From the NCBI GenBank assembly GCA_019115485.1, contig DXDM01000042.1, positions 1 through 57,421 on the forward strand: DNA of 57,421 nt, in the 5' to 3' direction. Below, piece by piece: positions 29,705 to 56,260 of the stretch (positions are counted from its first letter, which is position 1; the number at the start of each line of letters is the position of its first letter). The DNA comes from Candidatus Barnesiella excrementavium. GTDB lineage: Bacteria; Bacteroidota; Bacteroidia; Bacteroidales; Barnesiellaceae. A program made the translations under genes and the position numbers. The notes below the pieces were generated by a model that worked only from the letters and a program-made list of their open reading frames with translations, was not told where the DNA came from and made no database searches.

Positions 29705-30199
29705 TCATTGCATAAGAGCCTTTCTCCTTTCGATTTCACTACGCAAATTATTGAACCAGTTAGCATAGATGGTGGGGTCTTCGACCATGCTGTTTTTGTT
29801 CCGGGTATTCTTGCTGAACTGACTGAGAGTTGAGGTGACACTACCTTCGTAGAGTGTAAACTTAACCTCGGTCAAACTGTCGTTGAGCGGTTGAATGAAG
29901 AAAGAGGCTTGCGAAGTGGAGGCTTCGGTAGCACTACCTAAAAGAGCCATTTGCCAATCGGCATTTTTATTGTCAATCTGTTTGCTGGCTGTAATGAGTC
30001 CCGATTCTTTATCGGTACTGTTTATCAAGAATCCCTCGGATTGGAGCAGAGAAATGGCCGAACTGAAAACAAGGTTGTAATCAGCCTCGAATTGCTTGGT
30101 GGTCATCAATTTTACTTCTGTCGGTGAAAGTGCAGGTTTGGAGGTCCCGCACGATATAAGGATAAATAAGATGGGTAAAAGGAAGATGTATTTTTTCAT
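29705..30199 (-). CDS. Small lipoprotein of unknown function
   Basis: 164 residues. Signal peptide MKKYIFLLPILFILISC with lipobox ISC (Cys17). The mature part has a helix-strand pattern (FSSAISLLQSEGFLINSTDKESGLITASK) reminiscent of BamC/NlpB-type repeats, in which a helix is followed by strands around a Gly-Leu-Ile turn, but similarity is only in pattern. Base composition is clearly more AT-rich than most of the window. It follows a second small lipoprotein by 18 bp on the same strand and is followed by a terminator, so the two form an operon. I do not recognise a named family. Confidence 0.7.
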   Translation of the reverse strand: MKKYIFLLPILFILISCGTSKPALSPTEVKLMTTKQFEADYNLVFSSAISLLQSEGFLINSTDKESGLITASKQIDNKNADWQMALLGSATEASTSQASFFIQPLNDSLTEVKFTLYEGSVTSTLSQFSKNTRNKNSMVEDPTIYANWFNNLRSEIERRKALMQ

Positions 30200-30217
30200 T
30201 TTGTAGAAATTTTAGAG

Positions 30218-30604
30218 TTAGTAACTGGTTGAGATTACTGAATAGTCTGAAACTATATCGTTGGAGTCAAATGTGATGATTAAGTCGAACGATTGAGCAC
30301 TACTACTTTGAGATGCTCTTGCTCCAAATAGAAAATCGGTACCGCCCTGTTTGTTTACGGTACTCATTTTGTTGTAGCTCCATACTTCGTTGTTCGATTT
30401 GTTTTTCGACACCAGGTTGGGAGCTCCAAAGATTTCCAATATCTCGGCTTGATTAGTACTCCCTTTTATGATTTTTGATTTTACGACACCATAAGTGAGA
30501 TTGCTTTTTTGAGTCGGCTCAGCATTGGCCCCGTATTTATAGCTGCTACACGATATTGAAAATAACAGGGCGCAGCATGATAATAGAATCTGTATCTTTT
30601 TCAT
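30218..30604 (-). CDS. Small lipoprotein with BamE/SmpA-like domain
   Basis: 128 residues. Signal peptide MKKIQILLSCCALLFSISC with lipobox SISC (Cys19). The mature part, KIIKGSTNQAEILEIFGAPNLVSKN followed by EVWSYNK, matches the pattern of the BamE/SmpA fold (helix, FG.P turn, then W.Y strand), a fold shared by many small bacterial lipoproteins and inhibitors. First gene of a two-gene lipoprotein operon. AT-rich like its partner. A true BamE role is not implied; Bacteroidota have many paralogues of this fold. No clear promoter seen. Confidence 0.72.
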   Translation of the reverse strand: MKKIQILLSCCALLFSISCSSYKYGANAEPTQKSNLTYGVVKSKIIKGSTNQAEILEIFGAPNLVSKNKSNNEVWSYNKMSTVNKQGGTDFLFGARASQSSSAQSFDLIITFDSNDIVSDYSVISTSY

Positions 30605-31043
30605 CTATTGTATCTTTTATGAAAGTGATTAAAAATGTGGTCTTTGGAATAGATTTTCCCCTTCTTGTTCCGATTTGGCGATTTTATGGTTGTTTCATAG
30701 GCATCGTGTATTTGTGCTAATAGCCCCCAGATTTAGCCTGTTAATAAAAAAGAAAGCGTGGAGACTGTTTAAGGTTTATCTGTTCAAGAGGTATCGCCAA
30801 ACACCCACCATACAAATAAACAACAGTCCCACGCCTATATTGATATATAACTATATCAAAGGCGTGAGCGTTCTGTTGTATTACTCTGTATGGTTTTGAA
30901 AATTTGGCGATTTTCTTGAACAAAGTAATATCTAAAAAACGCTTCCGTTCGTATGTCTGCTCAAAAGACTAATTGTTTAGCTTTTTGAGTCTTTGCAAAT
31001 ATATGTTGATTTATGACAAAATCCAAAAAATGCGATGGCTGTT
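30605..31043. other. Gene-free AT-rich gap containing a long palindrome
   Basis: 439 bp between the lipoprotein operon and luxS. I see no gene that I can support. It holds a 142-nt imperfect palindrome (30781-30922) and a 13-nt sequence at 30673-30685 repeated exactly at 30902-30914. Confidence 0.7.
30781..30922. repeat. 142-nt imperfect palindrome, MITE-like or structured RNA
   Basis: Six blocks pair in nested order: 30781-30789 with 30914-30922 (9 bp), 30793-30801 with 30903-30911 (9), 30807-30814 with 30887-30894 (8), 30820-30826 with 30873-30879 (7), 30830-30836 with 30860-30866 (7) and 30840-30847 with 30852-30859 (8). The tip is a 4-nt loop. That is 48 pairs in one hairpin. Confidence 0.75.
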
Positions 31044-33790: not shown

Positions 33791-35833
33791 CTATATCGAC
33801 GATTCGTTGACAATAGGCTCGCCGCCCCGGTGGCCGGGCTTGATGAACGAGGGGAGGTCGCGGCTGCAAATGTAGTTGCCTATGCAGCGGGTGATGAGGA
33901 TATCGTCGTGGTGCCCCTCCATGGCTCCGTAGCTGCCGTTGGGCTTGCGCTCGAACACGTCGTGCTCGTAGCAGGCCCGGGCATCGTGCTCGATGTAGGC
34001 CCCTTCGCGCAGGGCCGACCGTTGGGCGTCGATGACCAGCACCTTGGTAGCCCGGTTCATGTGGAATCCCCAGCGGGAGGAGGGGCGCTGCCCGATGCTG
34101 TCGGGGGGCGCCGGCCGGGCGTAGAGGTTGTCGTAGTAGCGCGAGAGGGTGTCGAGCAGGTAGGCCGAGTGCTCGCTGTCGTCGTGCTCGGTTTCGAGGG
34201 TATTGCTCTCGATGACCAGCAGGGCGTTCTGGTAGTAGGCGGCCAGTTGGGCCGCCTTCCAGGCGAGCAGGTCGTGGTCGATGTGTCCCCGCCATTGGGC
34301 CACCACCTCGGCGGGACCCCCTTCGAGCATCCAGTAGCGGTCGAAGATGGCGATGACCGAGTAGTCGGCCGTGTCGGAACGGCCGCCGATGTCGACTACC
34401 GCCAGGTAGCGGTCGCGAATGTCGTGGCGTTCGGCGGGATATTCCCACACTTGCAGGGGGCCGCCGGGCTTGGTCTCCAACTCGATGCCTTCAAGCGCTT
34501 CGCGGCCGGTGGGTTCCTTACCGTGAATGTCGCCTTCGAACCGGGGCGCACAGCAGCCGTGGCGCAACCGCTCGACCAGTGTGGGGTCGAACACCCGTTC
34601 GCCCGAGTAGCAGAAGGCCTCGATGTCGTCGCTGGGATACTCGGCCATCATGTCGGTATGGCGCGAATACTCCTTCCGCTTCTGGCGGTACCAGGCAATG
34701 GCTTCGAGGGTGGCACCGCGGTCCCAGAGCATGCGCTCGTAGTCGGTGAGGGTGGCGATGAGCGAGTCGTAGTCGTCGACGGAAATGGCATACATCTCGA
34801 TCTCGAACCAGGGGACAAAGGCAAACAGCTTGTCGCTTTCGTGCCGCTTGGCCCGCTCGCACTCCTGGTGAAAGTAGGAGCCGGTACCGTTGGCGGTGCT
34901 CTCCATCACCACCATCGAGCAGGGGAGCAGCATGATTGACCCGCACACCGACCGCACCAGCTGTTCGGGCGACTTCATGCGGCTGTTGCGCCAGAAGGCC
35001 ACCTCGGAGAGGTGGGCCATGGCGACATCGATACCCCGCACCGATTCCTGACTTTCGGCCGATCCGATGGTGACCCGGCAGTCGCGCCCGACGATGACCG
35101 AGGTGTTGGCCATACGCTCGAAGGGGCGGAATTTGGGCTTGCCCTCGTCGAGCAGCCAGTCGGGGTAGTTGGCCAGCAGTTTGCTGTACATGCCCTTGAT
35201 GTTGGCCGCCGCCTCCTTGATGTGGGCGCATATCACGCTGTTCCAGTTGCGCCGGTGTACCAACTGTATCCAGGCCATGTAGATTTGTATGAGGGTGGAG
35301 CCGCCCCATTGGCGGGCTTTGAGCAAGATGAGGCGAATGGGGCGGTCGGTGGTGCGCATGGATTCGAGCATGCCCAGTATGCGGCGTTGCGGCCGGTTGA
35401 GCCGGAAGGGTATGTCGTTGGCCCCCAGTTTGTCTTTGATGCGCACGAAGCTGTATGCCCAGAATTCGAAGTCGTAGCGAATCCGCACCCGTATCCACTC
35501 CCGCCACAACGACAGGAGGGGCGAGATGTCGCCCTCGTCGTCGCTCTCGCCGTTGGGCGGCAGCGTGCGGCCTTCGCCGGGCGTGTCGACCCCCTGCTGC
35601 CGCAGATAGCCCGCGAGGCTGCCCGCCTGTGCAAGCTGTTGGACCAGCGGCTCGTCGAACATGGCCGCCGGAATATATTGCAGCGGCAGCGGAGCGTCGC
35701 TGAGCCGAATCGGTCGGCGGTCGCCCGTGTCGCTCCCCTCGCCCGTCTCGGGCGAATAGAATCGTTTCAGTTGTTCGTTTCGCAGTCGGTTGGCTTCAAT
35801 CGTTATCGTTTCGTCGTGTTGTACAATCCCCAT
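33791..35833 (-). CDS. Orphan phage terminase large-subunit-like protein
   Basis: 680 residues from ATG 35833 (a TTG seven codons earlier is possible). The N-terminal 130 residues are poorly conserved and Pro/acidic. The ATPase part has a Walker A-like LLKARQWGGSTL (170-181), a Walker B-like hydrophobic stretch ending HLSEVAFW with Glu277, and MESTANGTG (310-317) as coupling motif. The C-terminal RNase H-like nuclease part shows Asp481 in VVDIGGRSDTADYS, Glu542 in VIESN and Asp643/644 in GHHDD, so the catalytic acids are complete. No portal, capsid or small terminase gene is near, and its GC content matches the chromosome. It could be a decayed prophage relic, or a domesticated DNA-processing motor; both are inference. 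Confidence 0.8.
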   Translation of the reverse strand: MGIVQHDETITIEANRLRNEQLKRFYSPETGEGSDTGDRRPIRLSDAPLPLQYIPAAMFDEPLVQQLAQAGSLAGYLRQQGVDTPGEGRTLPPNGESDDEGDISPLLSLWREWIRVRIRYDFEFWAYSFVRIKDKLGANDIPFRLNRPQRRILGMLESMRTTDRPIRLILLKARQWGGSTLIQIYMAWIQLVHRRNWNSVICAHIKEAAANIKGMYSKLLANYPDWLLDEGKPKFRPFERMANTSVIVGRDCRVTIGSAESQESVRGIDVAMAHLSEVAFWRNSRMKSPEQLVRSVCGSIMLLPCSMVVMESTANGTGSYFHQECERAKRHESDKLFAFVPWFEIEMYAISVDDYDSLIATLTDYERMLWDRGATLEAIAWYRQKRKEYSRHTDMMAEYPSDDIEAFCYSGERVFDPTLVERLRHGCCAPRFEGDIHGKEPTGREALEGIELETKPGGPLQVWEYPAERHDIRDRYLAVVDIGGRSDTADYSVIAIFDRYWMLEGGPAEVVAQWRGHIDHDLLAWKAAQLAAYYQNALLVIESNTLETEHDDSEHSAYLLDTLSRYYDNLYARPAPPDSIGQRPSSRWGFHMNRATKVLVIDAQRSALREGAYIEHDARACYEHDVFERKPNGSYGAMEGHHDDILITRCIGNYICSRDLPSFIKPGHRGGEPIVNESSI

Positions 35834-35943: not shown

Positions 35944-35951
35944 TATCTTTG
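35944..35951 (+). promoter_or_regulatory. -7 element for the methyltransferase gene
   Basis: TATCTTTG with only 7 bp before the ATG, implying a leader of a few bases. No TTG at the right distance in this AT-rich stretch. Confidence 0.5.
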
Positions 35952-35958
35952 TCTTATT

Positions 35959-37443
35959 ATGGAAAGCAGACAAATAAAACATGGCGGTCAAGTTTTTACT
36001 CCTGGCTATTTAGTCATAGATATATTGGATTATTGTGGCTATGTGGAATCTCCTTACATATTGAGAAAACATGTTATTGATAATAGTTGTGGAGATGGCG
36101 CGTTTTTGTGTGAGATTGTTCTGCGTTATTGTCGAACTTTTTTGAAATATGGTAACGACCTCCAGATCCTTAAAAAAGAACTGCAAGAGTATATACATGG
36201 GATAGAGATTGATTCAGATACTTATCGTATGTGTATAGAAAATTTAAATCATATATCTTCTCAGTTTGGTATTGCTGATGTAGCTTGGGATATTGTTAGA
36301 GGCAATGCTCTAAAAGAGAGAACGTACGATGGTAAGATGGACTTTGTAGTGGGAAATCCTCCCTATGTGAGGGTTCATAATTTGGAGTCTGATTACATTG
36401 ATGTGAAGAGATTTACTTTTGCAAGCGGGGGAATGACCGATTTGTTTCTGGTATTTTTTGAATTGGGCTTTCGTATGTTGGCTGCTGGAGGAACTTTATG
36501 TTATATTACACCAAGTTCTTGGTTGAATAGTCTGGCGGGGGAGAGTATGCGGAATGAAATTATTTATAATAAATATTTGACCGGAGTAGTAGATTTAGGC
36601 CATTTCCAGCCGTTTAAAGCAACTACTTATACCATGATTTCTCGCTTTGAGAAAAGAGAGAATAATAATCGGATAGAGTATGATGTATATGATCCACAAA
36701 AAAATAGTATTTGCTGTGTTGACTTTTTATCATATGATGAGATTAATATCCGAAATAAATTCTATTTCTCTAATAGAAAAGAGTTGGATTTGTTGAAGCG
36801 CGTTAGATCTTCAAATGTGAAACAGTATGTTCGAGTAAAGAATGGTTTTGCTACATTGTATGATGAAATATTTATAGGAAATATTCCTTTTGATAAGTAT
36901 ATTATTCCTGTTGTAAAGGCATCAACGGGGAAATGGTATAGAGCTTTCTTTCCATATGATAAAGATGGAAATCCTCTATCATATGAACAGTTAATTTCAG
37001 ATAAAGATGTGCGTGCATACTTAGATAGCAATGCAGAAAAATTATTGAAAGGAAGAAAAAAGGAGGAGACTCCGGGTTGGTTCCTGTATGGTAGAACTCA
37101 GGCATTGAAAGATGTTTGCAAAGAAAAGTATGCTATAAATACTTGTATTAAAGATATTAATAGTATAGAATTGACCGAAGTACCACCGGGTAGTGGTTTG
37201 TACAGTGGTTTATATATTCTTCCGAATGAACAAGTTTCGTATAATCAACTTGAGAAAATAATTCGGAATGAAGAGTTTATTCGCTATATATCACTTCTTA
37301 AAAATTATAAGAACGGGGGATATTATACCTTTAATTCAAGGGATATAGAACTATATATAAATTATAAACTAAATTCAGACTATGCAAGAAGAGATAACAA
37401 CATTTCCTCTCGACAACTCGAATTTTTTAAGAGTATTGTCTAA
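35959..37443 (+). CDS. Eco57I-type DNA adenine-N6 methyltransferase with specificity region
   Basis: 494 residues from ATG 35959; upstream codons lie before the -7 box. Motif X GGQVFTP (9-15) and motif I DNSCGDGAFL (41-50) form the S-adenosylmethionine site, IDSD (84-87) follows in motif II position, and motif IV NPPY (133-136) is the catalytic site of adenine-N6 enzymes. Residues about 300-490 should be the target-recognition part, similar in layout to the TaqI/Eco57I C-terminal domain. There is no nuclease domain at the N-terminus, so the cutting function should be separate, and the next frame overlaps it by 62 bp. The gene is far more AT-rich than its neighbours, which indicates recent transfer. 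Confidence 0.88.
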   Translation: MESRQIKHGGQVFTPGYLVIDILDYCGYVESPYILRKHVIDNSCGDGAFLCEIVLRYCRTFLKYGNDLQILKKELQEYIHGIEIDSDTYRMCIENLNHISSQFGIADVAWDIVRGNALKERTYDGKMDFVVGNPPYVRVHNLESDYIDVKRFTFASGGMTDLFLVFFELGFRMLAAGGTLCYITPSSWLNSLAGESMRNEIIYNKYLTGVVDLGHFQPFKATTYTMISRFEKRENNNRIEYDVYDPQKNSICCVDFLSYDEINIRNKFYFSNRKELDLLKRVRSSNVKQYVRVKNGFATLYDEIFIGNIPFDKYIIPVVKASTGKWYRAFFPYDKDGNPLSYEQLISDKDVRAYLDSNAEKLLKGRKKEETPGWFLYGRTQALKDVCKEKYAINTCIKDINSIELTEVPPGSGLYSGLYILPNEQVSYNQLEKIIRNEEFIRYISLLKNYKNGGYYTFNSRDIELYINYKLNSDYARRDNNISSRQLEFFKSIV

Positions 37444-38114
37444 TTCATTTAGAGAGTTTCTTGATTCGGGAACATCTAGAAGTACAGCCAAACTTAATCC
37501 TCTGCACGGGGCCATTGCCCGAGATTTAGCTGGGAGATTGGGCTCAGATTATGTTGTTTTTTCTCAGGGATATAAAGAAGGAAAAGAAGTAAAAATAAAA
37601 GGCCGTTATATTGATAAGGCTGTAGATATAACGGTTAAAAAAAGGGAATATTGCTGTTGCTGGGTTATCGGTTAAATTTGTTATGCAGAATTATTCTCAA
37701 AATTCGAATAATTACTTTGAGAATATGTTGGGTGAGACCGCTAATATACGAAGTGGTAATTGCCCTTATTTTCAAATTTTCATTATTCTAGACAAGCTCC
37801 CATATTATAGACGCTCAGGAGAGCTTCATAAATGGGAATCTTTTACGGAACATAATGCGGAAAAGTATGTAATTCTTTCGAGGGATAATTCGGAAATCTA
37901 TTTCCATACACCCAATAAAACCTTGATTTATATTGTGCATATCCCTGAAAATAATAATCTAAAGAATAATAAACAATATATGGATTATTATAAGTCATTG
38001 AATCCATCTCTATCGTTGACAGAACATGATTATAATCATTTTGGGAATGGTGTGATACTAAATGATTATGAGAGCTTTATAGATAAAGTTTATCATACAA
38101 TCATGGCTTTGTAG
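37382..38114 (+). pseudogene. Putative type II restriction endonuclease, split by a frameshift at an A7 tract
   Basis: The first frame (37382-37675, 97 residues) begins inside the methyltransferase gene. At the run of seven A (37637-37643) it shifts: removing one A joins it exactly to the frame that ends at 38114, and the joined protein continues KKGNIAVAGLSVKF then MQNYSQNSNNYFENML. The full product would be about 243 residues. The region IDKAVDITV (78-86) followed by GLSVKF (94-99) resembles a PD-(D/E)XK nuclease core with a weak final motif, and the GETANIR segment looks like a conserved family motif. I see no named family with certainty. As written, the gene makes a truncated protein; a sequencing error, a true mutation or slippage at the A tract are all possible. 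Confidence 0.72.
37637..37643 (+). repeat. A7 homopolymer at the frame break of the restriction gene
   Basis: Seven adenines between GTT and GGG. With six, the two parts of the gene are in one frame; with seven, the first part ends at a stop at 37673-37675. Confidence 0.85.
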
Positions 38115-38137: not shown

Positions 38138-40246
38138 TTAAATACCAGTCGTTTGTGCCGGTGGCTCGGCCGGCTTCTCCTCGCGGGGTTTTTCACTCTT
38201 GTTGAGTTCGGGATAGCTGATGCGGGTGTGGTAGATGGTTTTTAGCTTCTCGATAAAGGTGGTCTTGATGGTCTCGACATCGCGGAAGCTGAGGGGGGTG
38301 TCGCGCAGCAGGCCGTCGGCGATTTGCGAGTCGATGATGCGGTTGACGAGTTGCGAGATGCTCTCGTTGGTGTACTCTTTGAGGCTGCGCGAGGCGGCTT
38401 CGACGGCATCGGCCATCATGAGGATACCGGTCTCTTTGGTGAAGGGGTTGGGCCCGGGATAGGTGAATTTCGACTCGTCGACAGGGCGGTCGGGGTATTT
38501 GTTGCGATAGGAGTTGTAGAAGAACTTGGCCTTACCCTTGCCGTGGTGGGTGGCTATGAAGTCTTTAATGGCCTGGGGCAGGCGTTGCTTGTCGGCCATT
38601 TTCAATCCGTCGTTCACGTGCGAGATGACAATCTGGGCGCTCTGCTCGAACGAGAGGGGGGTGTGAGGGTTGAATCCCGACTGGTTTTCGGTGAAGAAGG
38701 CGGGGTTTTTCAACTTGCCGATGTCGTGGTAGAGGGCGCCGGTACGTACCAGTTGGGCTTTGGCTCCAATTTTGTTGGCCGCTTCGGCGGCGAGGTTGGA
38801 GATTTGCAGCGAATGCTGGAAGGTGCCGGGACACTCCTCGGAGAGTTGGCGCAGTATGGGGTTGTTTACATCGGAGAGCTCGACCAGCGTGACGGTGGAG
38901 ATAAATCCGAAGGTTTTCTCGAAGATGTAGATGAGCAGGTAGGCAAAGAGCAGGAACACGCAGTTGATGCCGAAGTAGATGAACATGTTGTAGTTCAGTT
39001 TCGACAGGTCGCCTTCGGAGAGCAGCGTGTAGCCTACGTAGGCAAAGCAGTAGGCGAAGAATACGAGTACGGCGCAGCGCATGAGTTGCGACCGGCGGGA
39101 GAGGTCGCTGAGGCTGTCGATGGCGGTCATGCCCACAATGAGTTGCAGGAAGATGAATTCGAGCGCAAAGGGGGCGGTGAAGGCACAGATGAGTACGGTG
39201 ATGAGGTGCACGTAGAGGGCCGTGCGCGAATCGAAGAAGGTGACAACTATGATGGGTATGATGGCAAAGGGCACGAGGTAGATGCCTTGCACGCGCACTT
39301 CGGAGAAGAAAAAGGCGATGAGCGAGAGCCCTACGATGAGCATCATGATGAAGCCGAGGGTGCGCATCTCGTTGAAGGTCTGCGGGCGGAAGAGGGCCAG
39401 AAACAGGTAGAAGAAGGCGAAGAGGCAGGTGAAGACAATGATCTGCCCGACGACGGTGTAGCCCCGGTGGTCGTTGACGGTGCTCTTTTTGAGCGAGACG
39501 GTTTCGAGCGATTTGAGTATGCGGTAGGTTTGCGGGGTGACGATTTCGCCCCGGTCTACGATGCGTTCGCCGGCCTGCACGATGCCGTCGGAGAGGGCGA
39601 TGCGTTGCAGCAGGTTGTCTTTGAGCCGGTCGGTGGTGATGCTGTCGAAGGTGACGTTGGTGTTGAGAAAGTCGTTGAGGTTGCAGTTTTGCAGCACGTG
39701 GTGCGTGTAGGCGTCGGGGAATCGGTTAATGATGCTCTCGTAGGCTTCGCGGGGCGATTGCAGTTCGGCCACGGGCATTTCGCGGGCCACGTTGTTCTCG
39801 ACGATGCGTATCTCCTTGAATTTGCCCGATTGCAGGCGGGTGTAGTCGTCGGACGAGACGATGCCTTTGCGATAGGTATCGCGCAGGGCTTCAACCAGAT
39901 TCCTGCGCAGCGAGGGGGAGATGGTAAGGTTGGGGAGGTTGCCGAGCGATTTTTCGAAGTCGGTTGTCGATTTGGTCCCTACCGCGTTGTTGAACGAGAA
40001 TACCGGCTGGAAGCCCAGCATGATGCTGTCCTTCTCTTGCTGAATAACGGCTTCGTCCTTGTAGATGGGGAAGTCGAAAGGGGCGGTGAGCAGGCCGTAT
40101 TTCCAAGGCTTGCCCTCCTGGAAGGTGTAGCGAAATTTCCCTTCGCCGGGGAAGAAATAGGTAACCAGGGCCACCGCGGCTATGAAAAAGAGAAATTGCA
40201 GTACTCGTTTGCTGGCGAGGATTTTCTGTATGCGGGTTTGATCCAT
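38138..40246 (-). CDS. 7TM-HD phosphodiesterase, PgpH-like
   Basis: 702 residues. One N-terminal helix (about 15-31), a large extracytoplasmic domain (about 35-260), seven membrane helices (about 262-445), then a cytoplasmic HD domain with His478 (TFQHSLQ), the HD pair His507-Asp508 (LYHDIGK), His543 (SHVNDG) and His567-568 (THHGKG). Family members, such as PgpH of Listeria, break down cyclic di-AMP to pApA; the extracellular domain is thought to sense a signal. It is 12 bp downstream of the RelA/SpoT gene and so cotranscribed. In characterised relatives (p)ppGpp inhibits PgpH, which makes this pairing meaningful. Confidence 0.9.
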   Translation of the reverse strand: MDQTRIQKILASKRVLQFLFFIAAVALVTYFFPGEGKFRYTFQEGKPWKYGLLTAPFDFPIYKDEAVIQQEKDSIMLGFQPVFSFNNAVGTKSTTDFEKSLGNLPNLTISPSLRRNLVEALRDTYRKGIVSSDDYTRLQSGKFKEIRIVENNVAREMPVAELQSPREAYESIINRFPDAYTHHVLQNCNLNDFLNTNVTFDSITTDRLKDNLLQRIALSDGIVQAGERIVDRGEIVTPQTYRILKSLETVSLKKSTVNDHRGYTVVGQIIVFTCLFAFFYLFLALFRPQTFNEMRTLGFIMMLIVGLSLIAFFFSEVRVQGIYLVPFAIIPIIVVTFFDSRTALYVHLITVLICAFTAPFALEFIFLQLIVGMTAIDSLSDLSRRSQLMRCAVLVFFAYCFAYVGYTLLSEGDLSKLNYNMFIYFGINCVFLLFAYLLIYIFEKTFGFISTVTLVELSDVNNPILRQLSEECPGTFQHSLQISNLAAEAANKIGAKAQLVRTGALYHDIGKLKNPAFFTENQSGFNPHTPLSFEQSAQIVISHVNDGLKMADKQRLPQAIKDFIATHHGKGKAKFFYNSYRNKYPDRPVDESKFTYPGPNPFTKETGILMMADAVEAASRSLKEYTNESISQLVNRIIDSQIADGLLRDTPLSFRDVETIKTTFIEKLKTIYHTRISYPELNKSEKPREEKPAEPPAQTTGI

Positions 40247-42499: not shown

Positions 42500-42520
42500 A
42501 ACTTTGAAATCTAAGATAGA

Positions 42521-42551
42521 CAAAGATAACGTAAGTCGATTGTAAATGCAA
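42521..42551 (-). promoter_or_regulatory. Promoter of the rel-pgpH operon
   Basis: Minus-strand TTG (42549-42551), 20 bp, TATCTTTG (42521-42528). Exact consensus and spacing; leader of about 15 nt. Confidence 0.7.
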
Positions 42552-42566
42552 ATTTTATTTGCATTT
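42544..42566 (-). terminator. Hairpin after the EamA transporter gene, overlapping the rel promoter
   Basis: Perfect 10-bp AT-rich stem (42544-42553 with 42557-42566), TTT loop. It follows the EamA stop (42579) and includes the -33 element of the rel promoter, so it may instead be an operator-like dyad. Confidence 0.45.
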
Positions 42567-42578
42567 TGCCATGCGGCT

Positions 42579-43481
42579 CTATCGGGTGCCGAGGTAGAGG
42601 AAGAACATACCCAACAGCACGAGCACCAGGTCGAACGACTTGCTGCGGATATTCTTCTCCTTGAACAGGAGGGCGCCGGCGATGAAGCTCACCACGACGC
42701 TGCTGCGGCGCACCATCGAGACAATCGAAATCATCGAGTCGGGATAGCTGAGGGCGTAGAAGTAGACAAAGTCGGCACAGACCAGAAAGAGCGAGATGAA
42801 GAATATCGAGGGTCTCCACACAAACGGGGTGGTGTGCTTGCGCTGCGGGTACCACAGGAGCAGCAGCACGACGGCCATCATGGCCATCTGGTAGTAGGAG
42901 TACCACACCTGCACCGTCATGCGGTCGAAGCCGTGCGACATGAGGTATTTGTCGTACAGCCCACTGGCCGCACCCGTGATGGTGGCCAGCACGATAAAGA
43001 GAATCCACAGGTTGTGGCGGAAGTTGATACCCTCTTTCCGTCCCGAGAAGGAGAGCATGATGAACGAGACGATGGCCAGCAGCACACCCACCCACTGGTA
43101 GAGGTTGAGCCGCTCACCGAAGATGAGCAGCGCCCCGATGAGGGTGAGTATCGGTTGCGACGCCTTGATGGGGCCGGCGATGGTGATGGGCAGATGCTTG
43201 GTGGCGAAGTAGGCGCAGGTCCACGAGGTGAGCACCAGGGCCGCCTTGCCGATGATGTAGAGGTGTTCGCGCAGGGTCGAGGGGGGTACGTAGAAGAGGG
43301 AGTCGCGCATCAGGTCGGGAAATCCGTAGGAGAGTATGATGCAAGGCAGAAACAGCAGACTGCAAAAACAGGTGTTGAGAAACAACACGGGAATCACGGC
43401 GTTGCCGTTGAGCGACTGTTTTTTACACACTTCGTAACAGCCCAGCAGAAAGGCCGATAGAAAAGCAAGCGATAACCACAT
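42579..43481 (-). CDS. EamA/DMT-family transporter
   Basis: 300 residues with ten predicted helices in two EamA halves (about 1-140 and 150-300). Motifs include PITIAGPIKASQPILTLIGALLIFGERL at the end of the first half and VRRSSVVVSFIAGALLFKEKN at the end of the second, the two places where the family carries a conserved acidic residue between helices. Drug/metabolite exporters or importers of this kind carry amino acids, nucleobases or other small molecules. It is upstream of the rel gene on the same strand, with a separate rel promoter between them, and divergent from lgt. Substrate unknown. Confidence 0.86.
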   Translation of the reverse strand: MWLSLAFLSAFLLGCYEVCKKQSLNGNAVIPVLFLNTCFCSLLFLPCIILSYGFPDLMRDSLFYVPPSTLREHLYIIGKAALVLTSWTCAYFATKHLPITIAGPIKASQPILTLIGALLIFGERLNLYQWVGVLLAIVSFIMLSFSGRKEGINFRHNLWILFIVLATITGAASGLYDKYLMSHGFDRMTVQVWYSYYQMAMMAVVLLLLWYPQRKHTTPFVWRPSIFFISLFLVCADFVYFYALSYPDSMISIVSMVRRSSVVVSFIAGALLFKEKNIRSKSFDLVLVLLGMFFLYLGTR

Positions 43482-43589
43482 CTTTTTTACCTGTTTGAAA
43501 CCATTGAACTATTCTCCCGCTGTCTGCCTGCCGTTACCGGCACGACGACGGGGTGCCTCTCCCCCTGTGACGCAGGGCGATTGACGATG

Positions 43590-43597
43590 CAAAGGTA
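43590..43597 (-). promoter_or_regulatory. -7 element for the EamA transporter gene
   Basis: Minus-strand TACCTTTG, 108 bp before the start codon; no correctly spaced TTG. Faces the lgt -7 box 44 bp away. Confidence 0.4.
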
Positions 43598-43641
43598 GCG
43601 ATTCTTTTCGCTGCATCAGCTATGTAAACGCAGATTTGTGT

Positions 43642-43649
43642 TATCTTTG
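43642..43649 (+). promoter_or_regulatory. -7 element for lgt
   Basis: TATCTTTG, 39 bp before the lgt start. No correctly spaced TTG. Confidence 0.45.
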
Positions 43650-43688
43650 CATCGGCTGTGACATGGGGTCACGATAGAGAATCGAATT

Positions 43689-44552
43689 ATGGAACTGCTT
43701 TACATTCATTGGAATCCCGACCCGGTGCTCTTTTCGGTAGCGGGCATCGCTATACGTTGGTACAGTATCTTCTGGCTCATCGCCATTTGGGCCGGCAGTC
43801 AGGTGGTCTATAAGCTGTATAAGTTGAAAGGGCTTCCGATGGATACGTTTCAGACCCTCTTTCTGTACAGTTTCCTGGGCATCTTTATCGGAGCACGGCT
43901 GGGGCATTGCCTCTTCTACGAACCGGGGTATTACCTGAGTCGCCCGCTTGAAATCATTCTGCCCATACACTTTTTGCCCGGCGGCGGGTGGCGCTTCACC
44001 GGCTATGCGGGGCTGGCCAGTCACGGGGGGACGCTGGGACTGATTATTGCCCTGGCGCTGTTCTGCCGCAAGACCAGGATTCACTACCTCGATATTCTCG
44101 ACATGATGGGTATCGCCGCTCCCGTAGCGGCCGGGTTTATCCGCTTGGCCAACCTGATGAACTCCGAAATCATAGGTATGCCGACCGATGTGCCCTGGGC
44201 TTTTGTCTTCGAGCGGGTGGATATGTTGCCGCGTCACCCGGCACAACTTTATGAGGCGTTGGCCTATTTCCTCTTCTTCGGGGTGATGGTGGCGATTGTG
44301 TGGCTCCGTCGCGACCGTTGCGGGCGGGGCTTCTACTTCGGGCTCTGCATCACGCTCATCTTTCTCTTCCGCTTCTTTATCGAGTTTCTCAAAGAGCGTC
44401 AGGTCGATTTCGAAAACGCCATGCCCATCGACATGGGGCAGGTGTTGAGTATCCCGTTTGTGGTGCTGGGTCTCTATTTCGTAATTACGCGGTGGAACAA
44501 TACCGTTGTCGACAGACTGCCGAAAACGGGGCAGGGAAAATCCCGGAAGTAA
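43689..44552 (+). CDS. lgt: Prolipoprotein diacylglyceryl transferase
   Basis: 287 residues, seven membrane helices. Transfers diacylglycerol from phosphatidylglycerol to the lipobox cysteine, the first step in maturing lipoproteins such as the SusD-, XusB- and PorE-like proteins of this window. Recognised by the first-helix region FSVAGIAIRWYSIFWL, GARLGHCLFYEPGYYL (63-83 region), the SHGG motif (111-114), the RLANLMNSEIIG signature corresponding to the family's Arg-Asn-Asn core, HPAQLYEA and RFFIEFLKE. Convergent with the GNAT gene, only 4 bp between stops. Function clear. Confidence 0.95.
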   Translation: MELLYIHWNPDPVLFSVAGIAIRWYSIFWLIAIWAGSQVVYKLYKLKGLPMDTFQTLFLYSFLGIFIGARLGHCLFYEPGYYLSRPLEIILPIHFLPGGGWRFTGYAGLASHGGTLGLIIALALFCRKTRIHYLDILDMMGIAAPVAAGFIRLANLMNSEIIGMPTDVPWAFVFERVDMLPRHPAQLYEALAYFLFFGVMVAIVWLRRDRCGRGFYFGLCITLIFLFRFFIEFLKERQVDFENAMPIDMGQVLSIPFVVLGLYFVITRWNNTVVDRLPKTGQGKSRK

Positions 44553-44556
44553 TAGC

Positions 44557-44997
44557 TTAAATTTCTTTCTTTAAATAAATCATATCGACAATTTGTCTCT
44601 CTCCCTCGAAGATAGGTTGTGGATAGTGTCTGGTAAAGAATCCGGGTATCCGGTGTGAATAGCGGAATCCGCATCGTTCGTAAAAAGGTATCGTGAGGGG
44701 CGAATCGCCTGTCCCGACTTGCAAAGTTGCTCCGGCAGGACAATGGCTTTCCACATATTCGATAAGTTTGCGGGCATAGCCTCGACGCTGGAAGGAGGGA
44801 TAGGTGGCCAGATTTTTGATTTCGTAGAGGTCTTCTCCTTCTCGGGTGACGACGCAGATACTCTTCAATCCCTCGTCGTACAAGGCAAACACTTCGCCCC
44901 GGTCGAGGTAGCGCTCTATCATCTTTTCACATTCGTCGGCCAACAGCAACAGGTCGAGAAAGTCTTTCTTCTCATGTGTTATGTGTTTGATCTCCAT
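44557..44997 (-). CDS. GNAT-family N-acetyltransferase
   Basis: 146 residues. The acetyl-CoA loop is QRRGYARKLIEYV (about 75-87), preceded by the conserved strand LYEIKNLATYP and followed by FYERCGFRYSHR with the C-terminal motif B. No second domain. It lies 12 bp downstream of truA and is probably translated from the same message. Target may be an amino acid, antibiotic or protein; nothing in the sequence decides. Start ATG 44997 chosen because it leaves the complete fold. Confidence 0.85.
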   Translation of the reverse strand: MEIKHITHEKKDFLDLLLLADECEKMIERYLDRGEVFALYDEGLKSICVVTREGEDLYEIKNLATYPSFQRRGYARKLIEYVESHCPAGATLQVGTGDSPLTIPFYERCGFRYSHRIPGFFTRHYPQPIFEGERQIVDMIYLKKEI

Positions 44998-45009
44998 AGA
45001 TAGACTCTC

Positions 45010-45765
45010 TTATCGGGGCAGGAACAGGTTGTCGGGGTAGGTGATGTCGTGGAGGAACAGGGCTTTGCCCGGCACCGAGGTACCGGCGGCGCAGCGGTCT
45101 TTCTGCTCGATGATGCGGCAGAAGCCTTCGACCGAGAGCTTGCCGCGACCCACGTCGAGCAGGGTGCCCACGATGGCCCGCACCATGTTGCGCAGGAAGC
45201 GGTCGGCCGTGATGGTGAATACCTGTTGCTCCCCCTCGCGCTCCCAGCGGGCGAAGGTCACCCGGCAGTTGTTGGTCTTCACGTCGGTGTGCAGCTTGCT
45301 GAAGCTGGTGAAATCGGTGTATCGGTACAACTGTTCGGCCGCCTCGTTCATGCGGTCGAAATCGAGCGTGCCCCGGTAGCGGCAGGCAAAGGTTTCGAGG
45401 AAGGGCGACTTGTGGTCGATGAGGTAATATTTGTAGGTGCGGCTGAGGGCATCGAACCGGCTGTGTGCCTCGTCGGTGACGGGGCGTATGTCGTACACGG
45501 CAATGTCGGGGGGAAGCACCCGGTTCAGACGGTCGGCCGTCTCGGCGGGATTGTCGAGCGGAGCCGGGGTGTCGAAGTGCGCCACCATGAGCCGGGCATT
45601 CACGCCGGCATCGGTGCGCCCTGCCCCGGTGACGGGTGTCTCGCGACGCAACAAAGTAGCCAACGCCTTTTCAAGCTCGGCCTGCACGGTGATGCCGTTG
45701 GGCTGTATCTGCCAGCCGTGGTAGCGGGCACCGTTGAACGAGAGGTAGATGAAATAGCGTGACAT
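45010..45765 (-). CDS. truA: tRNA pseudouridine(38-40) synthase
   Basis: 251 residues. Converts uridines 38, 39 and 40 of the anticodon stem-loop to pseudouridine. The catalytic Asp52 is in [11 protein letters not shown]; other motifs are [10 protein letters not shown] near the N-terminus, [12 protein letters not shown] and [19 protein letters not shown] in the C-terminal half. Length is usual for bacterial TruA. First gene of a two-gene unit with the GNAT gene. Confidence 0.95.
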
Positions 45766-45783
45766 GGCGGTACTGAAAATAGA

Positions 45784-45870
45784 GATGGATTATCGGGCGG
45801 GTTTCGAGTCGGGCAGCAGGGCGGGGCGATTCCCCTGGCACTGTGGCCCCTCCCCGGCCGATAATCCATC
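45784..45870 (-). terminator. Large-loop hairpin between speA and truA
   Basis: Perfect 13-bp arms (45784-45796 and 45858-45870) hold a 61-nt GC-rich loop that can fold further. On the minus strand it follows the speA stop by about 10 bp and is followed by a U-rich stretch. Confidence 0.6.
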
Positions 45871-45879
45871 GGGTTGAGT

Positions 45880-47778
45880 TTAGTCGTTTTCGAGATAGGT
45901 ATATCCGTAGAGACCCGAGCGGTAGTTCGAGAGGAATTCGCGCCCCTCTTCGGGGGTGATGACCCCCGCCTTCATCGACGAGGTAACCCATGTCTCTACG
46001 CTGCGCACCAGCTTCTTGGGTGAGAACTGTACGTAGTCGAGTACCTCGGCTACCGTTTCGCCGTCGATTACCTGGTCTATTTCGTAGCGGTCTTTGTACA
46101 CGCTCACGTGCACGGCGTTGGTGTCGCCGAAGAGGTTGTGCATGTCGCCCAGAATCTCCTGGTAGGCCCCCACCAGGAAGACACCTATATAATAGGGTTC
46201 CTTGTTGTTGAGGGCATGTACGGCCAAGTGTGAGTTGGAGCCGTGGGGCGAGATGAAGTTGTTGATCTTGCCGTCGGAGTCGCAGGTGATGTCCTGTATC
46301 GTGGCCGTGCGGTCGGGCCGTTCGTCAAGCCGGCTGATGGGCATGATGGGGAACAGCTGGTCGATTGACCACGAGTCGGGCAGCGACTGGAAGAGCGAGA
46401 AGTTGCAGAAGTATTTGTCGGGCAACAGCTTCGAGATTTTACGCAACTCTTCGGGGGCATGCTTCATGTCCGAAGCAATCTCGCTCACCTCGCGGGCCAC
46501 CGACCAGAAGAGCTGTTCTATTTGAGCCCGGGTGCGCAGGTCGAGCAGTCCCAGACCGAAAAGGTCGAGCGCCTCCTCGCGAATCTGCAAGGCGTCGTGC
46601 CACGATTCGAGCAGGCGGGGCTGGTTCATGTTGTCCCATATCTTGTAGAGTTCGTCCACCAGTTCGTGCGGGTTTTCGCCCAACTCCTCCTTCTCGTCCC
46701 AGATGGGGAGCGAGGTAGTTTCGAGCACCTCGAATACCAGTACCGAGTGGTGTGCGGTGAGCGAGCGTCCCGACTCGGTGATGATGTTGGGCTGAGGCAG
46801 GTCGTTCTTTACGCAGGCATCGACCAGCGCCGATACCGAGTCGTTCACATACTCCTGTATCGAGTAGTTCATGCTGCTCTCGCTCGACGACGAGCGGGTG
46901 CCGTCGTAGTCGACTCCCAGACCTCCGCCGATGTCGACAAACTCGACGTGGAATCCCATGTTTTGCAGTTGCACATAGAATTGCGAGGCCTCTTTGAGCG
47001 CATTCTTGATGCGGCGTATCTTGGTGATTTGACTGCCGATGTGGAAATGAATCAGTTTGAGGCAGTCGGTCATCTTGGTCCTTTCCAGGAAATCGAGGGC
47101 ATCGAGCAGTTCGCTCGAATTCAGACCGAACTTGCTGCCGTCGCCACCGCTCTCTTCCCACTTGCCGCTACCCGAGCTGGCCAGCTTGATGCGGATACCG
47201 ATGTTGGGACGAATCTTCAACCGTTTCGAGATGTCGGCAATCAGTTTCAACTCGTTCAGTTTCTCGACCACGAGGAAGATGCGGCGTCCCATCTTCTGGG
47301 CCAGCAGGGCCAGTTCGATGTAGTTCTCGTCCTTATAGCCGTTGCAGATAATGAGCGAGTTCTTGTCGGTATTGATGGCCAGCACCGCATGCAGTTCGGG
47401 TTTGGACCCCGCTTCGAGTCCGATATTGAATTTCTTGCCATGGCTCACGATCTCCTCGACCACCGGTCTCATCTGGTTCACCTTGATGGGGTAGATGATA
47501 AAGTTCTGAGCCGTATAGCCATACTCGTCGGCCGCCTGTTGAAAACATTTGGATATTTTCTCGATGCGGTTGTCGAGAATATCGGGGAAACGCAGCAGCA
47601 CGGGAGCGGTCACATCGCGCACTTGCAACTCGTCCATCAACTCTTTGAGGTCGACCGAGGCATATCCCTCTCGCGGGGTTACAGCCACATGACCCTTCTC
47701 GTTGATTGAAAAATATTTCAGGCCCCAACCGTTGATGTTATACAGTTCGGCGGAGTCCTCGATACGCCATTTTCTCAT
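45880..47778 (-). CDS. speA: Biosynthetic arginine decarboxylase
   Basis: 632 residues, the long SpeA class of fold-type III PLP enzymes. Converts arginine to agmatine for putrescine and spermidine synthesis. PLP lysine K99 in YPIKVNQ, the phosphate-binding GGGLGVDYDG (284-293), and the catalytic Cys499 in ITCDSDGKI are present; a central family insertion lies about 360-420. Starts at ATG 47778 (MRKWRIEDS). No other polyamine gene is near, so it is regulated separately. A short AT-rich hairpin is found about 160 bp upstream (47940-47965). Confidence 0.95.
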   Translation of the reverse strand: MRKWRIEDSAELYNINGWGLKYFSINEKGHVAVTPREGYASVDLKELMDELQVRDVTAPVLLRFPDILDNRIEKISKCFQQAADEYGYTAQNFIIYPIKVNQMRPVVEEIVSHGKKFNIGLEAGSKPELHAVLAINTDKNSLIICNGYKDENYIELALLAQKMGRRIFLVVEKLNELKLIADISKRLKIRPNIGIRIKLASSGSGKWEESGGDGSKFGLNSSELLDALDFLERTKMTDCLKLIHFHIGSQITKIRRIKNALKEASQFYVQLQNMGFHVEFVDIGGGLGVDYDGTRSSSSESSMNYSIQEYVNDSVSALVDACVKNDLPQPNIITESGRSLTAHHSVLVFEVLETTSLPIWDEKEELGENPHELVDELYKIWDNMNQPRLLESWHDALQIREEALDLFGLGLLDLRTRAQIEQLFWSVAREVSEIASDMKHAPEELRKISKLLPDKYFCNFSLFQSLPDSWSIDQLFPIMPISRLDERPDRTATIQDITCDSDGKINNFISPHGSNSHLAVHALNNKEPYYIGVFLVGAYQEILGDMHNLFGDTNAVHVSVYKDRYEIDQVIDGETVAEVLDYVQFSPKKLVRSVETWVTSSMKAGVITPEEGREFLSNYRSGLYGYTYLEND

Positions 47779-48176
47779 TTCTTATAGACAAAATTGAATT
47801 TGTGGGGATATACATAAAATATACAGCGAGCAAAAATACGGATAATAATTGAATAGAGAAAGCAGAAAGGGGCGTACATTGTACCCGATACGCAGGTTTT
47901 TTTGTATACTTGCTGGTAAATTCATGCCATATGCTTGTTCCTGTATATATATGTAAATATACAGGACGGGCCGACTCCCCACCATCTCCTCCCGGGAGCA
48001 TGCACGAGTGAGATAGACATGCGGGAAGTGCTTCGAAGAATTTAATTGTTAAAATATGTTATTTGTGGAGGTTGTTGTAGTCTTTAATCATCTTTCGATT
48101 CTATACAATAACAAAGCATCGTCATAGATGCGCATGCGTTTTAACCTTGGTCTTTCGAACGGTAAGAGAGGGTTCT
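47779..48176. other. Divergent intergenic region between speA and the ECF sigma gene
   Basis: 398 bp with no gene I can support. It contains a 9-bp-stem hairpin (47940-47948 with 47957-47965), a perfect 10-bp palindrome (47989-47998) and a minus-strand -7-like box TATTTTTG (47831-47838) for speA without a well-placed TTG. No clear promoter for the sigma gene was recognised. Confidence 0.6.
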
Positions 48177-48767
48177 ATGAAAAGGAAAGTGGATAATGAG
48201 ACCTTGAAAGGATTGAAGGGGGGTAAGATAACCTCTTTTGAATCGATATATCAATACTATTCGGGGCGGGTGTACAATTTCATCAACTCCATAGTAAAGG
48301 ACCGCGTTCTCTCCAAGGACCTGACTCAGGACGTGTTCATGCAGATATGGGATAAACGCAATGGCATACAGTGTGAGGGGAATTTCGATTCCTACATTTT
48401 TACGATAGCCCGTAACCGGGTGTACAGTTATCTCAAACGAGAGATATGGTTCCAGCAATATTTCGAGGCCCAATCCAAGGAGTATCCCCTCGAAGTGAAG
48501 GACGAGACCGATTGTGAACTGGACAACCTGTTGCTCGAAGAGTATATTTTGAGACTGATCAGCGAGCTGCCCGAGTCGCGCCGACGCATCTTCATGATGT
48601 ATTGGAAGGAGGAGCTCAACTACGTGGAGATTGCCGGGCAGCTGTCCATCTCGGAGAAGACGGTGGCGACACAGGTGCAACGCTCGTTGCAGTTCTTACG
48701 GTCGAAGATGCGCTATGTCGCCTTAGGCCTGTTTCTGATGGGATTCGTATGTGATAAGTTTTTTTGA
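48177..48767 (+). CDS. ECF-type sigma factor of a polysaccharide utilization locus
   Basis: 196 residues from ATG 48177 (a TTG ten codons earlier is possible). Sigma region 2 (about 18-86) has LTQDVFMQIWDKR and FDSYIFTIARNRVYSYL; sigma region 4 (about 120-178) has SELPESRRRIFMMYWKEELNYVEIAGQLSISEKTVATQVQ. The last 15 residues are hydrophobic (VALGLFLMGFVCDKFF), a weak membrane-like tail seen in some Bacteroidota ECF factors. Followed 27 bp later by its FecR-type anti-sigma gene. It should transcribe the SusC-SusD genes behind it when the glycan is present. Confidence 0.92.
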   Translation: MKRKVDNETLKGLKGGKITSFESIYQYYSGRVYNFINSIVKDRVLSKDLTQDVFMQIWDKRNGIQCEGNFDSYIFTIARNRVYSYLKREIWFQQYFEAQSKEYPLEVKDETDCELDNLLLEEYILRLISELPESRRRIFMMYWKEELNYVEIAGQLSISEKTVATQVQRSLQFLRSKMRYVALGLFLMGFVCDKFF

Positions 48768-48794
48768 AGTGTTAGATAGAGTTTTTTTGTAAGT

Positions 48795-49802
48795 ATGGGA
48801 AGACAGAATAATATGGACTCAGACCAGTATATCGAGATGATGAATCGGTATCTTCGTCACGAGGCAACAAGCGAGGAGAAGGCCGAACTGTTGCGGGGGA
48901 TAGGAACGTCTCAAATGCAGCAGGTTTTTGACGAAAAGGCTGCCGGGTTGTGGAACTCGGCTTCGTCTGAACTTGATGAAGAAACCCGCAACGAGATGCG
49001 GCAGAACCTGTTGCAACATATTCGGGAGGAGCGTTCGGTAGGACGTCGTCACCTGTGGAAGAAAATATGCCGGATAGCCTCGGTTGTATTGCTGCCCGTT
49101 GCCGTATTTCTTGCGGTGGTCGCTTATTATGAAATCGGTCAGGCCGAAAGCGACAAGACCCCCTTCTCGTTTGTGGTCGATTCGGGCCAGAAGGCCAGCA
49201 TGACTCTTCCCGACGGTACCAAAGTGTGGCTTAACTCGGCCAGCAAACTGAGCTATTATCCCTCGTACAACCGGGACGACCGGCGGGTATACCTGACTGG
49301 TGAGGCCTATTTCGAGGTCGCCAAGAATCCCGACAAGAAATTTGTAGTCGCCTGTCAGGGGGTCGAGGTCGAGGCTTTGGGCACCACCTTCAACGTAAAG
49401 GGTTATGACGACGACGCCACGGTCTCCACGTCGCTGATAGAAGGCTCGGTGAGGGTCTCGCACGACGACCGGTCGGTGCTGCTTGACCCGAGCGAAACGG
49501 TCGACTTCGATAAGAGCAGCCGGCTGTTTGCCAAATCGAAAATCGAGGACAACCGGCAGGTCGACTTTTGGCGCCGGAACATTCTCTACTTCCGTTCGGC
49601 TACACTGGCCGAGATTGCCAAGACCATGGAACGGCTCTATGGCGTCTCGGTAGAGTTTGAGTCGGACGCGTTGAAAGAGATCTCCTTCTCGGGCAGTATC
49701 CGGAACAACAGTCTGACGAATGCCTTCTATATCATCAGTCTCACCTATCCGCTCACCTATGAGATCGATCGCAATGTGGTGAAGATAGGCATGAAGCAAT
49801 GA
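48795..49802 (+). CDS. FecR-type anti-sigma factor
   Basis: 335 residues. Residues 1-88 are the cytoplasmic sigma-binding part, a single membrane helix lies at about 89-112 (CRIASVVLLPVAVFLAVVAYY), the FecR domain at about 125-225 (VDSGQKASMTLPDGTKVWLNS, GEAYFEVAKNPDKKF) and a C-terminal DUF4974 domain at about 262-333. It spans the inner membrane and receives the signal from the STN domain of the SusC protein encoded downstream. ATG at 48795 chosen; ATG at 48813 also possible. It is 27 bp after the sigma gene. Confidence 0.93.
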   Translation: MGRQNNMDSDQYIEMMNRYLRHEATSEEKAELLRGIGTSQMQQVFDEKAAGLWNSASSELDEETRNEMRQNLLQHIREERSVGRRHLWKKICRIASVVLLPVAVFLAVVAYYEIGQAESDKTPFSFVVDSGQKASMTLPDGTKVWLNSASKLSYYPSYNRDDRRVYLTGEAYFEVAKNPDKKFVVACQGVEVEALGTTFNVKGYDDDATVSTSLIEGSVRVSHDDRSVLLDPSETVDFDKSSRLFAKSKIEDNRQVDFWRRNILYFRSATLAEIAKTMERLYGVSVEFESDALKEISFSGSIRNNSLTNAFYIISLTYPLTYEIDRNVVKIGMKQ

Positions 49803-49999
49803 CACGAGTGTACCTGTTTATATAAACACCCCGATTTGTTAAACCTTAAAAATGTCGATGCTTATGAGTACTTATGCCAACCACCCTCCCGACTCGGGAC
49901 GATAATCGTTTGCCAAGGAAACGAGGCAATCATCACAAATGCTTTTTTGTGAAGAGAGTAGTTTTTTATCTTATGTCTAATATCGAAAATTAAATTGTA

Positions 50000-52900: not shown

Positions 52901-53239
52901 CTCGACCGTTGGAAACGACCGGGCATGATTACCGATATACCGCGTGCAGGAAACATTGAGAACAGCCACAACTCGACCCGCTTTGTCGAGGACGGCTCCT
53001 ATTTGCGCTTGAAGAGCCTGACCTTGTCGTATGACTTTGACCGGAAGCTGTTGCGCAAGATGCACCTCTCCAAACTGCAATTCTATGTAACCGGACAAAA
53101 TCTGTTGACCTTCACCAATTACAGCGGGTATGACCCCGAAGTGAATGCCTATGGCGCCGATGCGGTGGCTTTGGGTGTAGACTACGGAACCTATCCCCAA
53201 TCGAAAGCTGTGATTTTTGGTCTGAATGTTGAATTTTAA
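50000..53239 (+). CDS. SusC-family TonB-dependent transporter with STN signalling domain
   Basis: 1079 residues. Signal peptide ending NVKAQ (27-28). Residues 29-103 form an STN domain ([25 protein letters not shown] start) that contacts FecR. A carboxypeptidase-D-like domain is at about 112-185 ([18 protein letters not shown]), then the [16 protein letters not shown] segment (190-205) with the TonB box, the plug (about 205-320; [60 protein letters not shown] in pieces) and a 22-strand barrel. Imports oligosaccharides caught with SusD. The STN domain and the upstream ECF sigma/FecR pair predict trans-envelope induction by the substrate. Confidence 0.95.
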   Translation: [1079 protein letters not shown]

Positions 53240-53252
53240 ATGAAGAACGAAA

Positions 53253-54734: not shown

Positions 54735-54766
54735 TTATTGTTTAATGTTTTGATAATAGTACGATT

Positions 54767-56134: not shown

Positions 56135-56169
56135 ACGGACTCATGAACCGTTAAAAAGATAATGCAGAC

Positions 56170-56210
56170 GAGACGAGTGTAACCCGTGCGCGGGTTGCAT
56201 TCGTCTCTAT
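56170..56210 (+). terminator. 17-bp hairpin between the SusE-like and hexosaminidase genes
   Basis: Stem 56170-56186 with 56191-56207 (two G-U pairs), 4-nt loop, followed by a short T/C-rich run. A second, weaker hairpin (56226-56231 with 56240-56245) follows before the next start codon. Confidence 0.65.
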
Positions 56211-56260
56211 TTCCCCTTCTGTTTCGTCCCGGTCCGGGTCGGGACAACAAGATTCATCAA

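Follow-up and report, generated by a model that had tools for sequence, protein, structure and literature searches.

A long-resident Barnesiella Type II restriction-modification system predicted to act at CTNNAG has probably lost its nuclease to a recent frame shift

On decaying restriction-modification (R-M) systems and orphan methyltransferases, PMC4687349 describes corrupted R-M genes and frequent loss, with avoidance of recognition sites left as a trace by systems that have been lost. For the sequence CTNNAG, an excerpt of PMC3874165 gives this as the specificity of M.Eco57I, an extra methyltransferase that accompanies Eco57I, itself a monomeric Type IIG enzyme. Adenine methylation (m6A) at CTNNAG is also listed for Mycoplasma dispar (in a section of PMC6385981) and reported for an algal giant virus (in an excerpt of PMC12700378). 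A full-text literature search for CTNNAG led to these three papers; no endonuclease that cuts the sequence is reported in their excerpts. For CCGG-family-type enzymes, which have a PD-(D/E)XK fold, a section of PMC4652773 describes a KX12-13E variant and a PDX21-53K spacing.

We analysed a stretch of 57,421 nucleotides (the window) from Candidatus Barnesiella excrementavium, whose genome is a 2.68 Mb draft in 60 contigs (G000 among the nine genomes of the genus compared here). Between two core genes it holds a methyltransferase gene and a putative restriction endonuclease gene that is read in two frames:

33791..35833, minus strand: left flanking core gene, in 9 of 9 genus genomes; adjoins the HD gene in genomes lacking the R-M pair
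35959..37443, plus strand: adenine-N6 DNA methyltransferase (M), intact, 494 aa, with NPPY; ATG at 35959, stop at 37443 (evidence: Pfam, PADLOC, dN/dS)
37382..37675, plus strand: 5' part of the putative restriction endonuclease (R) gene; 97-aa product with E69 and D82 and without K98 (evidence: unbroken homologues)
37635..37643, plus strand: GTT-A7, the frame change (A7 at 37637-37643; GTA-A7, in frame, in the nearest relative)
37644..38114, plus strand: 3' remainder of the R gene, read in the other frame; 156 codons, conserved, dN/dS 0.041
38138..40246, minus strand: right flanking core gene, encoding a 7TM-HD phosphohydrolase; in 9 of 9 genus genomes

We think it probable that a two-gene Type II R-M system has long been resident at one Barnesiella site. 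Most likely its methyltransferase modifies the adenine of CTNNAG, and unmethylated CTNNAG was the substrate of the 243-aa PD-(D/E)XK-like enzyme encoded by the overlapping gene, until a recent one-base frame shift in GTT-A7 inactivated the nuclease and left the methyltransferase whole; restriction would thereby have been lost and modification kept. The case resembles the decaying systems described in PMC4687349 in its corrupted R gene and in site avoidance. It differs from them in that unbroken, half-broken and empty states occur at one locus within one genus. R-M decay is common; here the break is dated as recent by two rough clocks, one from coding constraint and one from site avoidance, and the link of CTNNAG avoidance to this gene pair is new.

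The window protein has both the domain and the NPPY motif of N6-adenine methyltransferases of the Eco57I family (Pfam Eco57I, E = 9.9e-22, 78.3 bits against a cut-off of 25.3; N6_Mtase, 1e-13), and it matches PADLOC MTase_II (PDLC03315, 6.3e-171); its Pfam family suggests the gamma type. Compared with G001, its dN/dS is 0.080. It belongs to the Pfam family of M.Eco57I (PF07669) and shares its site by prediction, the likeness being one of family and site. Unlike Eco57I, a Type IIG monomer in the PMC3874165 excerpt, the Barnesiella methyltransferase is partnered by a separate small putative endonuclease. As the earlier note had it, the methyltransferase is intact and overlaps the second gene, which starts at 37382, by 62 bp. 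This overlap is conserved, as the distance from the methyltransferase stop to the start of the nuclease match is the same in loci L012, L013 and L014. The layout is that of a Type II system, a methyltransferase gene adjoining a separate putative endonuclease gene, and the window genome has no complete endonuclease gene, its frame being broken between D82 and K98 and the methyltransferase alone kept.

The upstream frame of the nuclease gene stops at 37675, after 97 aa, and the downstream frame runs on to 38114; the second gene is indeed continuous only across a frame change at the A7 of 37637-37643. Using the downstream part alone as query, we searched the window genome and 98 relatives (99 genomes) and found matches in 11, the window's own included. 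An open homologue was present in five of the eight same-genus relatives and absent from three. In seven close relatives, those five among them, the homologue is a single frame, and therefore both frames belong to one gene. The unbroken proteins are 243 aa long (249 from the first ATG in G002) and 76-96% identical over the downstream part. An unbroken pair is present in five genomes of the same genus, and the earlier note's reading of an R-M pair whose nuclease was split by a frame shift and whose methylase was kept is supported.

Relatives of the nuclease are encoded in at least 200 public genome stretches, including Bacteroidales, Clostridia and other groups, of which we examined the best 80. 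A methyltransferase match adjoins the nuclease in 78 of these 80; the other two are contig ends. Outside the genus members with the pair, the methyltransferases at these best 80 loci are at most 57% identical to the window's over long matches, and those of L079, L087 and L088 only 31-33% identical. Under table 11 the nuclease has an internal stop at four of the 80 loci (L029, L053, L080, L087) and is cut short at L084; the sample favours unbroken copies because it was ranked by score. The nuclease of L010 also looks frame-broken, at a different place. At L062 (3565-5788) an inversion splits the methyltransferase gene, the first two thirds of which lie past the nuclease gene on the opposite strand; of 14 inverted repeats listed there, none joins the two inversion break points. 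Four distant viral contigs encode nuclease relatives that are 34-39% identical. A phage or plasmid origin of the nuclease was rejected, as the phage and plasmid collections gave no match at E 1e-5.

We asked what the second gene encodes. No family in Pfam, NCBIfam or PADLOC consistently fits the nuclease: matches were scattered over 1-3 of the 43 members of our alignment (A3; 41 of the 80 loci and two of the four viral loci), the best being PADLOC Csx19 (two members, E = 1.3e-4) and Pfam DUF7413 (one member, 4.6e-4). Searches of PDB sequences found no relative, either with the downstream part (best E 0.4) or with the family profile (up to E 1). The L012 homologue was predicted to fold with a mean pLDDT of 95.4. 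Among its ten best Foldseek matches eight were restriction enzymes or NucC (NucC twice, the R.BspD6I small subunit, BsaWI, BstEII, EcoT38I and PspGI twice, besides two unrelated proteins); the best E was only 0.0079, and none reached 0.001. The modelled fold of L012 weakly resembles PD-(D/E)XK restriction enzymes. The likeness extends, weakly, to CCGG-family enzymes of the related BsaWI/PspGI/NgoMIV type (Foldseek ranks 4, 8 and 10), from which the nuclease differs in that its predicted site is unrelated and that the profile search of PDB detected no sequence similarity.

All 43 aligned members share E69, K98 and E113, and D82 is nearly invariant; D82 and K98 belong to the nuclease-like core that had been noticed in the joined protein, and all four are candidate catalytic residues. 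K98-x14-E113 places an acidic residue after the lysine, like the KX12-13E variant, and D82-x15-K98 is shorter than the PDX21-53K spacing, both as described for CCGG-family enzymes in the PMC4652773 section. One of the 43 members weakly matches the XhoI/PaeR7I family (PF04555) at E 0.12, which is not significant; the XhoI site CTCGAG is one member of CTNNAG, but RM-bearing genomes have lower values for each of the ten CTNNAG classes and not just for CTCGAG. That the second gene is the partner endonuclease is best argued for, functionally, by its methyltransferase partner and by three of the 80 relatives in which methyltransferase and nuclease form one open frame of 721-734 codons:

L036, 2528-4690: one-frame methyltransferase-nuclease, Hoylesella enoeca
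L067, 2525-4726, and L083, 2513-4711: one-frame methyltransferase-nuclease, a Clostridia MAG and a Bacteroidales MAG

If the four residues are catalytic, the break between D82 and K98 should abolish cutting. An internal ATG at 37683 starts after K98 and the break falls after D82, so neither piece should cut.

Both halves of the nuclease gene still show purifying selection. Measured against G001, dN/dS is 0.077 for the part before the break and 0.041 for the part after it; the comparison set, 19 flanking genes chosen for end-to-end alignability, spans 0 to 0.29. The break is therefore recent, polymorphic or a sequencing error. Were it an error in sequencing or assembly, the organism would have an intact gene and a fully active R-M system. 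In favour of this, the evolution of both halves is that of an intact gene, avoidance of CTNNAG (observed/expected 0.08) is as strong as where the nuclease is unbroken (0.05-0.19), and the genome is a draft in 60 contigs. However, the window/G001 DNA alignment (41.1 kb) argues against such errors. It contains 48 gaps whose length is not divisible by three, and of the 28 genes listed over it, taken from the window's open reading frames, only three have frame-changing gaps: the nuclease gene, 15763-16341 (two gaps that cancel) and a gene with one gap in its stop codon (28615). The stop-codon case apart, the nuclease gene has the sole uncompensated frame-changing gap, and none of the other 27 genes has one before its stop codon. 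In addition, the other A7 (36698), inside the methyltransferase ORF, is in frame. We thus consider an error unlikely.

The same comparison gives a rough age for a recent frame shift. Taking all ten nonsynonymous differences outside the overlap as neutral, the nuclease has spent no more than about 16% of the window branch without constraint, a rough figure; this bound also fits a switch or a sequencing error. In a crude neutral model of site regain, with no CTNNAG regained in 1-42499 outside the island, the break accounts for no more than about 21% of the same branch. The nuclease would have lost its activity, and the break may be fixed in the population.

The earlier note had suggested that a changing number of A residues might switch cutting on and off. 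By such slippage a subpopulation would be in frame, with cutting toggled and methylation always on; the break does lie at a homopolymer, and selection on both halves and site avoidance persist. Comparison with relatives speaks against it. In G001, the closest unbroken copy, the sequence is GTA-A7-GGG in frame, and in the window GTT-A7-GGG out of frame. The G001 tract is in frame because the preceding codon is GTA, not GTT, so that A7 length alone does not set the frame, and the comparison does not single out the extra letter. The longest A run at this position was 1-6 in the 75 readable of the best 80 of at least 200 relatives, and the tract is thus not conserved. Nor is A7 unusual in the island, which has two A/T runs of at least seven against 1.5 expected (1000 first-order Markov sequences, P = 0.43). 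A run of seven is also short for a contingency locus. We regard slippage switching at this locus as improbable, and a conserved A-tract switch as a family feature was rejected.

Alternatively, the full-length nuclease could still be made by ribosomal frameshifting or transcript slippage, as the conserved downstream frame would allow. This we consider very improbable, since the protein lies in one frame in seven close relatives and the tract is not conserved. An ordinary -1 frameshift signal was rejected, because the classical -1 heptamer leads to the third frame and not to the conserved one.

To find a recognition site for the pair, we compared 128 palindromes of the form XX-N0..7-X'X' within the genus (observed/expected in sampled stretches, 97-476 kb per genome). 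CTNNAG was at 0.08 (G000), 0.15 (G001), 0.19 (G007), 0.05 (G008), 0.18 (G006) and 0.18 (G002) in genomes with the pair, and at 0.71 (G003), 0.74 (G005) and 0.26 (G004) in those without. CTAG and GATC were low in all nine genomes. The one-base neighbours ATNNAT, GTNNAC, TTNNAA, CANNTG, CCNNGG and CGNNCG were at 0.65-1.00 in the six genomes shown. CTCGAG or CTGCAG alone was rejected as the site, since each of the ten CTNNAG classes had a lower value in RM-bearing genomes than in the pooled G003 and G005. Whole-genome counts of CTGCAG are in agreement, at 15-96 with the pair and 708, 360 and 30 (the last in G004) without, against 199-328 for a reversed-pattern control in the nine genomes. For CTCGAG the agreement is partial: counts were 28-180 in G000, G001, G007 and G008 (control 217-553) and, in the genomes lacking the pair, 1911, 1757 and 568 (control 897, 703 and 417), but CTCGAG was not rare in RM-bearing G002 and G006 (356 and 269; control 257 and 218). 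G004 has no pair at the locus yet avoids CTNNAG (0.26; L138, L197-L199, L246-L250), which would reflect either a recently lost pair or a different system that shares the site.

The same association was seen beyond the genus. At the 80 RM-bearing loci, three of which come from the genus members above, CTNNAG was found 739 times against 1502 expected (0.49), and 40 loci were below 0.35. In 20 RM-less stretches, from genomes without a nuclease match, it was found 378 times against 415 expected (0.91), the lowest of the 18 long enough being 0.62 (Fisher, 40/80 versus 0/18: 2.7e-5, kinship ignored). CTNNAG gave the largest RM-linked contrast of the 128 motifs, with CCGG a close second (0.58 versus 1.03); within the genus CCGG was at 0.92-1.00 with and without the pair alike. 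Outside the R-M genes, 24 of the 80 RM-bearing loci had a CTNNAG ratio of at least 0.7, pointing to recent arrival or to another specificity. Also weighing against the assignment, the window's genome encodes two further methyltransferases with an Eco57I domain. Of the loci with broken nucleases, L053 and L080 still lie in CTNNAG-poor DNA and L029 does not.

Within the window seven CTNNAG sites occur. Five are in the R-M genes (36160, 36485, 37249, 37620 and 37959; 8.7 expected), of which 37620 is near the frame break. The rest of the window has two against 171 expected, and the 40 kb of 1-42499 outside the island contain none. In the corresponding G001 stretch there are six, three of them inside its island. 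Inside the R-M genes of L012, L013 and L014 we counted 5, 4 and 3 sites against 6.0, 6.2 and 4.5 expected, and at the 40 avoiding loci CTNNAG was at 0.29 in the R-M genes and 0.12 elsewhere. The system thus probably acts at CTNNAG, a site predicted from avoidance, which the methyltransferase would modify and the nuclease would have cut.

The earlier note described the island as foreign and AT-rich, and "foreign" proved only partly right. Its GC content is 0.334, that of the two adjoining genes 0.564 and 0.635, and in G002 the low GC of the R-M genes persists, partly ameliorated (GC3 0.49-0.64). However, in each of the six RM-bearing genomes (of nine) the same two core genes flank the pair, and the methyltransferases of genus members with the pair are 69-92% identical to the window's; the pair therefore looks like an old resident, and a recent foreign island, in its simple form, was rejected. 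In G003, G004 and G005 the flank-gene matches are separated by 253, 175 and 356 bp, without any R-M match in that interval. In a midpoint-rooted flank tree these three form a group with the window and G001 that excludes the other four RM-bearing species, and G004 branches first in that group (support 84 and 100). Ancestral presence followed by two losses is the simplest history, though instead of two losses a re-gain at the same site in the G000/G001 ancestor is compatible with the tree. Synonymous divergence of the R-M genes is about twice that of the flanks between G000 and G001, the sole unsaturated pair, and tends to be higher in other pairs, which fits a rate difference.

Taking these results together, we lean slightly towards a broader view, in which a widespread family of small endonucleases, with an M.Eco57I-type methyltransferase to which it is fused in three cases, recognises CTNNAG and has just been lost, or is OFF, in the window strain, site avoidance serving as a fossil clock. 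The predicted specificity makes this unnamed nuclease family a testable enzyme family: strains with an unbroken pair should restrict unmethylated CTNNAG DNA and the window strain should not.

Elsewhere in the window, synteny with G001 stops near 42.5 kb, and 42500-57421 is unmatched in the 76-kb G001 stretch compared. Two AT-rich lipoprotein-like genes at 29705-30604 (GC 0.376 in 30001-31000) have no match in the G001 region.
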